Shown here piece after piece: positions 34,490-38,491 of a stretch of DNA of 64,000 nt. The stretch is from Pigoraptor vietnamica (lineage: Eukaryota > Opisthokonta > Filasterea), in the NCBI GenBank assembly GCA_943704525.1, contig CALSCQ010000747.1:33220-97219 (forward strand), read 5' to 3'. The notes under the pieces were generated by a model. That model did not search any database and had not been told where the DNA came from. It saw only the letters and a program-made list of their open reading frames with translations. Both the position numbers and the translations under genes were made by a program. Position 1 is the first letter of the stretch; every line of letters starts with the position of its first letter.

Positions 34490-36551
34490 TTACGACGAAA
34501 CGCCCCGCTGTCGTTGCTGCGCCTGCGCCTTCAAGAGGGCTCTGTCCATCTCTGCGCTCGCGCGATAAAGAGCATCTCGTTCCACGCCTGCCATTCGCGC
34601 GCACACTCCGAGCAAATGTGCGAGGGGCGCGTGGGGAGTGAGACCCCGCGAGTCGCGCAGACTGTAGACGGGATATGACTTGCTGCGGCCGCCCACGACA
34701 CCCTCCGCCGTCACTGGATTTGTAGCCGGTGCCTCGCGCGCGCCTCCCGCCGTGTGTTTGCCACCAAATGCGCCAAATAGTGCCGCAAGCTCACCGGTGC
34801 CTGCAGCGGAGTGGCGAATTAGGTCGTGTCCGCATTTCACACATTCGGTAACCAATGTGATAGGCGCCCGCGCACCTTCATCGACTCGCTGTTCGTCCAG
34901 AATGTGGGCGCGGCAGAAAGCAACGTACGCAGCCTCGTCGATGCCCTCCAGTTGCCTGCAGAGGGAAGCAATTGAGCCGAAAGCACTTCAACCTCACCCG
35001 CCAACCCACGGCTGGACCACAGCACACAATTGAGCACGCACTCGAGAGACCAGGGGAGCGGCGCGTTCTCGTCGGCAGCGCGCTGGTGCGTCACTGCCGT
35101 CAACCATGCATGCTCAACATCGGCTGGAACCCTGTGGGCGGCAGCAAGGTGTCGAGGGTCAGTTCCCGCAAAATGTGTCTGGAACGGAGACCTGACCCAA
35201 AAGCAGAACACATGACGCCGCTCGCAAGCAGAACACAGGACGCACCGCTCGTCAAAGTCAAGGCCCCAACACGCCTTTGCGACGGCTACCAGTGCGGCCA
35301 TCAGCACAGCCGGTGCGGGCGGCGACGGCGTCACGGGAAACGAAGCGAGCAGTTGAGGTGCCGCTAGTGCCAACACCGCCAGCGCTGTGCGGTCGCTGCC
35401 CCCTGCGCGTCGTTGACCGAGGCATAAAGAACCGACTATACGGCCGTGCCAGGGGAGCAAATGCACTTGCGCATGCACTGCCGCGGCAACACTCACGTGG
35501 CAGCCCAACACGGCTTGCGAAACGCGCGAGAATCGGCGCCACGTTGAGCGGCGGCAGCGAAACGCCGAGGTGCTGCGCGAGCTCGATCGCAAGGCGGTAG
35601 ACGCCGTCGGCAGTTGGAAGTGTCTGCGACCGAAGCGGCTGAGCCAGACATTCGCGGCAGTGCCCCCCAGACTGCGCTTCTCCGCACATCTCGCAAGCAC
35701 TGCAGTGGCGCAACGCACCCGCGGTCGAATATTCTGCCACGCGGCGGCGCCGAGTCGAACGTTGCGCGGCAGCAGAGCGTGCGCGGAGAGATAGGGCAGG
35801 GCGCCGTTGCATGCCCACCTGCAGGGGATAGGATGGTTGCATTGAGCGCCCGCACAACCGACGGCCTCGCAGCGGAACTCACGTGACAAGATCCACCGGC
35901 AGCACGGGCTCTCGCAGGCGCACGAGCGCAAGAAACGCAAACGCAAGCGAGTGTGGCAGCCGCAAGTCCCCGCATGCACCGAGCGCAGTCCGTCCCGCGC
36001 CGTCCGACCACGTGAGATAGGCAAACCAGAGCGCCGCTATCTCCTCCTGCAGCCAGTCAGGGGAGTGAGCCCACGCACCAGCAACGAACGCAAGCGAGCG
36101 GGTCACGCATGGCACGCACGCACCGCACCTTCACGGCGCCAGGGAACCGGAACGCGCCACTGAGACAGCTGGCCTGCGCGGCGAGCACGCGCTGGAAGGC
36201 CTCGTGGTACGCGAGCGTCTCGTCCCAAACGTCCACGTCCGCATCTGCAGCAGCGGTGCGTTAGTTGCCACGTGCGCACCCTCGCGCCCAGCCCACGTGC
36301 CTGTGCGCGAAGGCCGCGCGCGTGTGCGCTGCTTCTTGAACGTTCCCTCCGCCGCCGCGTCTTGCTCGCCCTCCTCTTCGCGGTAGTCCTGCAGTTGGCG
36401 GGCCACGCGTGAGCACAGACCCATCGTCCGCTCCCGCCATCCGTTGCACACTGCCCACCTGCGACTGTGTGCCGCAGTGCGCGCACACGTAGAAGCCGCC
36501 CTCGTTCTGCGAGAACGACGCCCCTTCGCAGACAGCGCACGTGAGCGGCAT
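34490..36551 (-). CDS. TAF1B: TAF1B/Rrn7-type RNA polymerase I initiation factor (zinc-ribbon, TFIIB-like)
   Basis: Starts at ATG 36551. The N-terminal zinc ribbon is CAVC...CAHC within MPLTCAVCEGASFSQNEGG and FYVCAHCGTQSQ, as in Rrn7/TAF1B. Next come DETLAYHEAFQRVLAAQASC and VTRSLAFVAGAWAHSPDWLQ, then LWFAYLTW and LPHSLAFAFLALVRLREPVL, which fit the cyclin-fold region. The rest is spread over many short exons that I did not all define. The last exon runs from QLEGIDEAAYVAFCRAHILD to the stop at 34490 and includes another Cys pair (CVKC). The product should recognise rDNA promoters with the other SL1/core-factor subunits. Assignment rests on the N-terminal ribbon and helices. Confidence 0.75.
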
Positions 36552-36684
36552 CGTCCCTGCGGCCACCGGTGCAACTGCCGGTTTCACACATAAGCAGGCG
36601 CTTGGTCACGTGACGATGTTTCGACTCGGCGCCTTTTTCCGCCTTCACTGTGGCAATGCATCGACAGCGCAGACTGCCGTGGAA
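36552..36684. promoter_or_regulatory. Divergent 5' region TAF1B / F-box-Arf, with GTCACGTGAC
   Basis: The shortest divergent gap, 133 bp. It holds a perfect 10-bp palindrome GTCACGTGAC at 36605-36614, the form bound by bHLH-Zip factors in animals. Confidence 0.6.
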
Positions 36685-38491
36685 ATGGACGCGAGTGGGG
36701 GTGCCATGGAAATCGACGGGGACAACGGCGACGCGCCGTGCCACCTGGCCGCGCTCACCGATGAGCTGACTTGCGCGGTGTGTTGTAACTTGATGTTGTC
36801 TGTGTGTGTGCCTGTGTTTGCATGTGTGTGTGTGTGTATGCGTGTGTGTGCATGTACTGTGTGCGCGAGTGGGACGGGGGTCGTCAGTGGTGTGAGAGGA
36901 GCAGGCGCGATGTGCTTCTGATGCGCCGGCACCACAGATTTTGTCCTATCTCGGCCCAAAAGACCTGCTCAATGTGTGCTCTGTCTGCCGGTGGATGAAC
37001 CGACTCGCGTGCGACGAGCTCCTCTGGAAAGGTCAGCCCCGCTGTGTCGGCATGTCGTGCGCATGCTTGCTGCTGTGTGTTGTCGGCACGTCGTGCGCAT
37101 GCTTGCTGCTGTGTGTCATCGCCCCGTGTTGCGGGGTTGCGTGTGCTGTCTGTGGCCTAATGCGCGAGGCACCGGCGCTGCAGACCTCTACATGCGCCAC
37201 CTGTGCCTGCTCCGCGCCGTCGGTTCGGACAGTCTCCACCCACGGCGCGACTCGACGTGGAAGGCGCTGTTTCGCGAGACGCACTTCCCCGCGGCCGGCC
37301 GCCCGGCAGACTCGACTGCGAGTCCTGGGGACGGACCGCCGCGTCGCCCGCGATCTCTCCGCAAGGCGCGCTACTCGGTGCTGTACATTGGACGCCGAGG
37401 GGGTGGGTGGCCTGTTACGTTGAGTGGTTAGGTCTGTGGTGTCGCGCGTTCACTGTTGGGCCCTTGGGTCTTTGGGTTTCATTGGTCTGTGTTACATTGC
37501 GTGGTTACTTTCTGTCGTTACTTTTCTGCCCCATTGCTGTGGGTTTCTGTGCGTTGACGAGGAACTCTGGAAGTGATGGTGTCTCACGGGCGGTCACGTG
37601 CGCAGCGGGCAAAGCGACCATCTTCTACCACCTCAAGTTCGGACCGGGGCACAGCAGCACTTACTATCTCAGCCGTTTTGGTGAGACGCTTGCGCTCGAA
37701 GTGCCCGACATCAACACTGTGTTTCGCTTCGAAGTGTGGGACCTTCCGGACGGATCGGTGGGTGTGTTCGTGTGCTCTGCGTGTGCATGAACTGCCGTGT
37801 GCTAATCGAGGGACCGCAGGCCGAGTCCGACATCCGCCCGTTCCAGCCCATTGATGGCATCATTGCGGTCGACGACGGCCGCGGACCGCCCCCCGGCTGC
37901 CCACCGCTCACCGCGCTCATTGAACGCATTGCACGCGCGTCCCCGATCCTCCCCGCTGCGCCGCCACCGCTGCTCGTGCTTGCCAACAAGGGGGACCTGC
38001 GCGCGCACCTGGGCCCCGCGGCGTCGGGCGCTGCCGAGTTTGCGCGGCGCCTCGGCCTCATGGAGGGGCGGGGCGTGGGCGTGGGGTGGCTGAGTCGCAG
38101 CTCGAGCACGAGCAGCACGAGCAGCCTCGGGAGCATCGGCAGCGGGGGACACGGGCACCACGCGGGCGCGCACCCGCAGGGGCACGGCGGCCCTTCGCAT
38201 GCGTGGGCCATGCCACCGCCGTCGGCACCGCACCCGTTTGTGGGCGCCGCTCTGCCGCAGGGCATTGGGCGGTGGCGCGTGCAGGTGTGCTGCGGGCTGA
38301 CACTCGAGGGGGTGCTGGAAGGCCTCGCGTGGCTCTCCGCCGAACTGGGCAGCACGGAAGGGCGGCGCTCGCGGGCACTGTCGTCATCGGTTGGGTCGCG
38401 CGAGTCCCCGCGCCACTCCATTTCTTCGACGGGGTCGATCAGTCCGACCGCGGGCATGTGGGCGCCGCGGGGCAACGGCAGCGAATCGTGA
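36685..38491 (+). CDS. F-box protein fused to a degenerate Arf-like GTPase domain
   Basis: N-terminal F-box across exons 1 and 2: LTDELTCA|ILSYLGPKDLLNVC, then WMNRLACDELLWK, continued in exon 3 by DLYMRHL and STWKALFRETHF. The same exon 3 (37184-37402) then starts an Arf-like domain with RYSVLYIGRRG, completed in exon 4 by AGKATIFYHLKFG, a P-loop with Ala where Arf has Thr. The switch II equivalent is FRFEVWDLPDG then IRPFQPIDGIIAVDD. The G4 motif is LLVLANKGDL, and the end WRVQVCCGLTLEGVLEGLAW fits the Arf G5/C-terminal helix. Exon boundaries 36685-36777, 36938-37031, 37184-37402 join in frame. A Gly/His/Ser-rich insert (about 38090-38220) and a Ser-rich tail follow. Expected role: SCF substrate receptor with a possibly nucleotide-free Arf module. 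Confidence 0.85.
36790..36865 (+). repeat. TG microsatellite in intron 1 of the F-box-Arf gene
   Basis: About 70 bp of GT-rich repeat just downstream of the donor at 36778. Confidence 0.8.
37034..37115 (+). repeat. ~36-bp tandem duplication in intron 2 of the F-box-Arf gene
   Basis: GTCGTGCGCATGCTTGCTGC followed by TGTGTGTTGTCGGCA is repeated once with few changes, next to the donor at 37032. Confidence 0.8.

Follow-up and report, generated by a model that had tools for sequence, protein, structure and literature searches.

An F-box protein of Pigoraptor vietnamica with an Arf-derived domain altered at conserved nucleotide-binding residues

The stretch analyzed here, called the window, is 64,000 nucleotides of contig CALSCQ010000747.1 from the filasterean Pigoraptor vietnamica, and at 36685-38491 on its forward strand lies a gene that appears to join an F-box to an Arf-type GTPase domain with altered nucleotide-binding residues. 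The question raised by this locus is whether the two halves belong to one protein and, if they do, what such an altered Arf domain could be doing behind an F-box. We find a single gene of five exons, with introns all of the GT..AG type, encoding an open protein of 409 residues. The reading that we favor, which we rate as slightly better than even, is that the product is an F-box protein of the Skp1-cullin-F-box (SCF) type, in which an Arf-derived pseudoGTPase may serve as a docking module, whether for substrate binding or for regulation.

The first-pass annotation had claimed that one gene joins the two domains, and this is borne out by Pfam matches to both, by the open exon 3 and by a protein of the same build in Pigoraptor chileana. 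The latter, P0001 (source name Opistho-2, 475 residues), matched with E 2.9e-178 and 71% identity over 94% of the query and was the sole match at E up to 1 in a large protein search (7993 scored candidates), so that the F-box/Arf order proposed for a search in relatives was indeed found in one. According to the relevant part of PMC7147346, Opistho-2 is a clone of P. chileana and Opistho-1 a clone of P. vietnamica. The Arl5 spliced from locus L018 of the genome agrees at 147 of 148 positions with an Opistho-1 protein (P0003), the single mismatch falling where the splice ends; this by itself would not tell the two species apart, but the 71% identity of P0001 makes it unlikely that the window is from P. 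chileana. When P0001 was aligned to the window DNA with introns allowed for, all four introns came out as in the gene model; this alignment begins at 36730, closes exon 5 at 38477 and adds one false piece beyond the stop, and thus the start and stop codons are taken from the open frame. Since one open exon spans both halves, the join does not depend on any guess about introns. As had been annotated, that exon carries the end of the F-box, a linker and the first Arf strand, but STWKALFRETHF, assigned there to the F-box region, lies C-terminal of the Pfam F-box match (residues 26-67). Merged gene models probably do occur in databases, an example being P0171 of Corchorus, which has the reverse order of Arf then F-box, keeps the catalytic Gln and was set aside as a probable merged model. 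Nevertheless, with both halves in one open exon and the same join in one predicted protein of a second species, it is extremely improbable that the join is an artefact of the gene model or represents two adjacent genes.

Both domain assignments exceed the Pfam cut-offs. For the F-box, PF12937 (F-box-like) scored 46.4 bits against a cut-off of 24.3, and PF00646 (F-box) 22.5 bits against 20.5 (E 1e-4). The Arf-family match, suggested earlier as a check by profile search, came from PF00025 at 24.4 bits against 22.3, and the same profile scored 31.1 bits in the P. chileana protein. At E up to 10, Pfam returned only F-box-like, Arf and F-box for the window protein, with none of the RING, B-box or coiled-coil domains of the TRIM23 type. 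Searched against PDB sequences, the Arf half gave a best E of 2.5e-6, and the best 60 of 83 matches were Arf/Arl chains or Arf fusions, while a profile of the two Pigoraptor proteins had matches among Arf chains and, apart from these, in the F-boxes of KDM2B, FBXW7 and SKP2. From its domain, the F-box would be expected to bind Skp1 and to place the protein in an SCF complex as a substrate receptor. Skp1-domain exons were located on two contigs of the genome, cullin exons likewise on two, and a six-frame scan gave at least 64 F-box-like matches, weak ones included (150 of 182 candidates scored).

How far the second half has moved from a working Arf was judged against Arf1 of the same genome in two MAFFT alignments, A2 and A3. 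In place of the G1 consensus GxxxxGK[ST], both species have GRRGAGKAT, where the Lys is retained and Ala replaces the Mg-binding Thr, and the G4 motif NKxD is present as NKGD or NKMD in the two Pigoraptor proteins; the earlier description of the P-loop and of NKGD holds as it was given. G3, normally DxxGQ, reads WDLPDG with no catalytic Gln. This substitution had been recognized, but switch II differs by more than substitution, having three extra residues before IRP and lacking the five that follow it (LWRHY in Arf1). For switch I the alignments disagree, with Thr opposite Thr48 of Arf1 in A2 and Tyr in A3. Taking altered G motifs as the mark of a pseudoGTPase, G1 is altered in part and G3 and G5 outright, and the Arf fold is seen in an alignment-biased model of the relative's protein. 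In that P0001 model no helix is drawn over residues 239-254, at modest confidence. The altered residues are common to the P. vietnamica and P. chileana proteins.

Comparison of these two proteins, in segments drawn by eye, places the best conserved part at the nucleotide pocket. The segment beta1-P-loop-alpha1 is identical at 30/30 positions, followed by beta5-NKxD-alpha4 (34/38), beta6-G5-alpha5 (24/28), beta3-switch II (20/24) and the switch I region (18/24); the F-box (32/51), the beta4-alpha3 region (21/38) and the Ser-rich insert (37/64) are less conserved. As far as two sequences can suggest, the altered pocket thus seems to be kept fixed and not to be decaying, which speaks against a simple relic.

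From these observations a mechanism can be hypothesized. The pseudoGTPase retains the P-loop Lys and NKxD but has lost the Mg-binding Thr, DxxGQ and the beginning of the switch II helix, and for this reason should not cycle. The pocket would probably still hold a guanine nucleotide or another ligand, as a structural or sensing element, which the conservation of its segments favors, and the remodelled surface would probably dock one particular partner for ubiquitination. Several points weigh against this interpretation. Some F-box proteins work outside SCF complexes. Every one of the 29 other sequences in the alignment behind the P0001 model has an Arf domain, which builds part of the fold match in from the start, and P0001 folded by itself, with no relatives, gave an unusable model (mean predicted local distance difference test score, pLDDT, 33.8). 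The constraint argument compares just two sequences, and P0001, though presumably derived from a transcriptome, may be a prediction from genome sequence. As for the earlier suggestion of a non-hydrolysing GTPase, the sequence supports it, but loss of Gln by itself is no proof, because Sar proteins have His at the catalytic Gln position and are working GTPases, as described in the relevant part of PMC3012027.

Is such a protein peculiar to Pigoraptor? A protein search with a generic F-box joined to a generic Arf P-loop as the query gave 1317 matches at E up to 1 (1995 candidates); the following counts cover the best 120 of these, 16 of which were rescanned with Pfam, so weak F-boxes may be missed in the remaining proteins. 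Both families occur together in at least six proteins: P0170 and P0182 of Pelomyxa schiedti, P0172, which we take from its identifier (m51a1) to be of Mastigamoeba, P0177 and P0178 from metagenomes (P0177 in ENA), and the Corchorus protein mentioned above. By Pfam, RCC1 repeats precede the F-box in P0170, P0172, P0178 and P0182, whose source names include one 'uvr8-like' and two 'ADP-ribosylation factor 1'. P0177 (290 residues) is a plain F-box followed by Arf, and P0180 is an F-box-Arf protein with its F-box slightly below the cut-off (19.7 against 20.5 bits). In all six F-box-then-Arf proteins with a readable switch II the catalytic Gln is replaced, by Glu in P0170, P0172 and P0182, by Ser in P0177 and by Pro in P0178 and P0180. 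Among the other 114 proteins, a WD motif lies close enough to the P-loop to be read in 104; the Gln is kept in 97 of them and lacking in seven; P0187, with RCC1, a weak F-box and an Arf with a broken-off switch II (WDGKHE), was counted with these seven. The difference gives a Fisher p of 8e-7, a value that takes no account of relatedness, and a single origin is possible for the four RCC1 proteins. A profile search from A2 returned mostly Arl5, with no further F-box-Arf protein among the best 120 of 196 matches and the Gln read in 114 of 119.

The archamoebal proteins (P0170, P0182, P0172) thus resemble the Pigoraptor pair in having an F-box and then an Arf without the catalytic Gln. They differ in the RCC1 repeats in front, in a near-canonical Arf half (Pfam E 6.7e-61, 3.1e-31 and 1.5e-25; the database entries for P0172 and P0182 have only part of the Arf domain) and in keeping the P-loop Thr, although P0170 has Arg for the P-loop Lys. 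P0177 shares the plain F-box-then-Arf build, again with the Gln gone, but its Arf is otherwise near-canonical. In a tree of 31 Arf domains the Pigoraptor pair has a branch to itself, 3.1 changes per column long, and the other F-box-Arf proteins lie near Arf1 with no well-supported grouping, which proves neither one origin nor several. Loss of Gln in all F-box-then-Arf proteins found is possibly a new pattern. Tentatively, and with rather less confidence than we give to the docking module itself, it can be proposed that F-box-Arf fusions arose more than once (the archamoebal RCC1 type, P0177 and Pigoraptor), with the GTPase switch disabled each time, always at the Gln and in Pigoraptor also at the Mg site and switch II. 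A dead-switch Arf as an SCF docking module would then be a recurrent solution, with Pigoraptor as its extreme form. If this pattern holds, the tying of F-box to Arf accompanies shutdown of the GTPase cycle, which would explain the Arf surface as a fixed reader of a substrate or partner, and the near-canonical proteins of amoebae and the heavily remodelled one of an animal relative would be natural paired cases for comparing nucleotide binding, Skp1 binding and partner choice.

The nearest precedents are in the literature on Arf-family fusions and pseudoGTPases. TRIM23 (ARD1) likewise has a C-terminal Arf domain in a ubiquitin-ligase protein, with RING, B-box and coiled coil instead of an F-box; it presumably has Lys in place of the Gln, and a literature search listed no paper with K458I. 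The first-pass annotation had named it as the only fusion of this kind, which does not stand: Vargova et al. 2021 (PMC8358228) report that some multidomain ARF-family proteins bear BTB or F-box domains, to which the Pelomyxa, presumed Mastigamoeba and metagenome proteins can be added. That paper describes recurrent recruitment of ARF-family proteins to ubiquitin-dependent circuits, and the GTPase domain of TRIM23 as highly similar to true Arfs. Since it reports ARF-family proteins with an F-box, the architecture seen here, an F-box and an ARF-family GTPase domain in one protein with a proposed link to ubiquitination, is already known as a kind. Its section 13 gives no species name for the F-box example, and its main text has none of the words Pigoraptor, Filasterea, Mastigamoeba, RCC1, catalytic and glutamine. 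PseudoGTPases are a recognized group (PMC5593906, PMC12722892), with p190RhoGAP pG1/pG2, CENP-M and Rnd as examples (PMC5593906), but none of those examples joins an F-box to an Arf-derived domain. Nucleotide binding by p190RhoGAP pG1 was tested experimentally (PMC5593906). Several Arf-like (ARL) proteins, namely ARL10, ARL13A/B, ARL15 and ARL16, likewise lack the Gln (PMC12722892/PMC5593906, relevant parts). Among the entries listed by our literature searches (20 of 16,546, 20 of 40, 1 of 1 and 2 of 3), none describes a pseudo-Arf domain in an F-box protein.

Other roles for the altered domain have to be weighed against a docking pseudoGTPase. Arf effectors bind at switch I and switch II, and a domain holding GTP unhydrolysed could act as a constitutively 'on' bait, bringing ordinary effectors to the SCF complex through a face like that of Arf-GTP. 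Such a role would fit the other F-box-Arf proteins well, with their near-canonical P-loop and switch I and with Glu, Ser or Pro for Gln, and the first ten VIA rows for the P0001 model are structures of Arf6, Arf1 and Arf3, including several in a GTP or effector form. However, the modelled state is steered by the alignment, and with the Mg-binding Thr, DxxGQ and the first turn of the switch II helix lost and switch I not cleanly alignable, an Arf-GTP face is unlikely in Pigoraptor. We therefore regard the bait as unlikely there, and recruitment of ordinary Arf effectors, which had been put forward earlier, is weakened by the remodelling of both effector-binding switches and is a likelier role for the amoebal proteins than for Pigoraptor.

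The change of the P-loop Thr to Ala with Lys kept recalls dominant-negative Arf T31N, a precedent for loss of the Mg-binding Thr, and a nucleotide-free decoy could capture an Arf exchange factor of the Sec7 type and deliver it to the SCF complex. Sec7 domains read switch I and switch II, yet both are remodelled here, and we consider this decoy quite improbable. A working but unusual GTPase, in which another residue supplies catalysis as His may do in Sar or Lys in TRIM23, would account for the high conservation of NKxD, the P-loop Lys and the pocket segments; but both the P-loop Thr and the whole of DxxGQ are gone, which is more than Sar has lost, and this too seems improbable to much the same degree. 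An Arf-derived pseudoGTPase that docks a partner to an SCF-type F-box protein remains the interpretation that we prefer. The features of the gene are collected in Table 1.

Table 1. Positions within the window of the exons, domains and altered motifs of the F-box-Arf gene
Feature	Position	Strand	Basis
Exon 1: assumed start codon, N-terminal tail, first F-box residues	36685..36777	+	splice model; from 36730 also P0001 intron-aware alignment
F-box domain, about residues 24-67, two introns inside	36754..37197	+	PF12937 E 3.3e-12; PDB F-box matches by profile
Exon 2: F-box core	36938..37031	+	splice model; P0001 intron-aware alignment
Exon 3: F-box end, linker, first Arf strand, P-loop start	37184..37402	+	splice model; P0001 intron-aware alignment
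Arf-like domain, about residues 123-364, introns and Ser-rich insert inside	37363..38353	+	PF00025 E 2.2e-5; PDB Arf matches; P. chileana model
P-loop GRRGAGKAT, split by intron 3; Ala codon 37614-37616 replaces Mg-binding Thr	37390..37619	+	sequence; A2, A3
Exon 4: remaining P-loop, helix 1, switch I region, strands, WDLPDG	37606..37757	+	splice model; P0001 intron-aware alignment
WDLPDGS replacing WDVGGQ	37737..37757	+	sequence; alignment
Exon 5: remaining Arf domain, Ser-rich insert, C-terminal tail, stop	37820..38491	+	splice model; acceptor and most of exon also P0001 alignment
NKGD guanine-specificity motif, retained	37985..37996	+	sequence; alignment
Ser/Gly/His-rich insert, helix 4 to strand 6, about residues 270-336 (~67), none in Arf1	38069..38269	+	alignment; low confidence in P0001 model
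G5 position, CCG (CAT in Arf1)	38288..38296	+	alignment

The two introns in the Arf half give no indication of its parent gene. One, of phase 1, falls at about Arf1 residue 27 and the other, of phase 0, at about residue 69, and six Arf-family genes compared from this genome (script-made models, several partial) share neither in both position and phase; Arl3 of that genome has an intron at about 69, in a different phase. An exon-wise search of the assembly (32.5 Mb, 1395 contigs) with an Arf profile did not return the window gene among its matches at E 0.001. Introns are rare in bodonid genes. The cultures used for sequencing both Pigoraptor species contained the bodonid prey Parabodo caudatus as well (PMC9492541, relevant part), and since the F-box-Arf gene is intron-rich, an origin from this prey is unlikely.

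Upstream and opposite in direction is a gene that begins with an RRN7-type zinc ribbon (36264-36605, minus strand, E 1.4e-8), and because its likely start is only about 130 bases from the F-box-Arf start codon, a promoter common to both is possible. A WD40 gene follows downstream, on the minus strand; of seven other frames scanned, two matched WD40 and five nothing at 0.01. Neither neighbor suggests a functional link.

Elsewhere in the genome there are other GTPases of unusual build. On contig C519 a single open frame of more than 1000 codons (L022:3-3161, minus strand) encodes another GTPase fusion, with a Ras-family domain (8.1e-25) that has DCGGGGA as its switch II, followed by a PH domain (3.8e-13) and a long tail, leucine-rich by eye and without a Pfam match. 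At L001:93-1091 (minus strand) a Sel1 repeat scores just below the cut-off, behind an N-terminal stretch that is F-box-like by eye with no Pfam match at 0.001; this frame and a single-frame Arf gene (L001:1402-2046, plus strand) are arranged head-to-head. A second switch-altered Arf is encoded in a single frame on contig C400 (L002:1483-2340, plus strand), with the P-loop GLDASGRTS, in which Arg replaces Lys, WDVGGC without the catalytic Gln, and a C-terminal extension of about 100 residues; no F-box was found in this protein.
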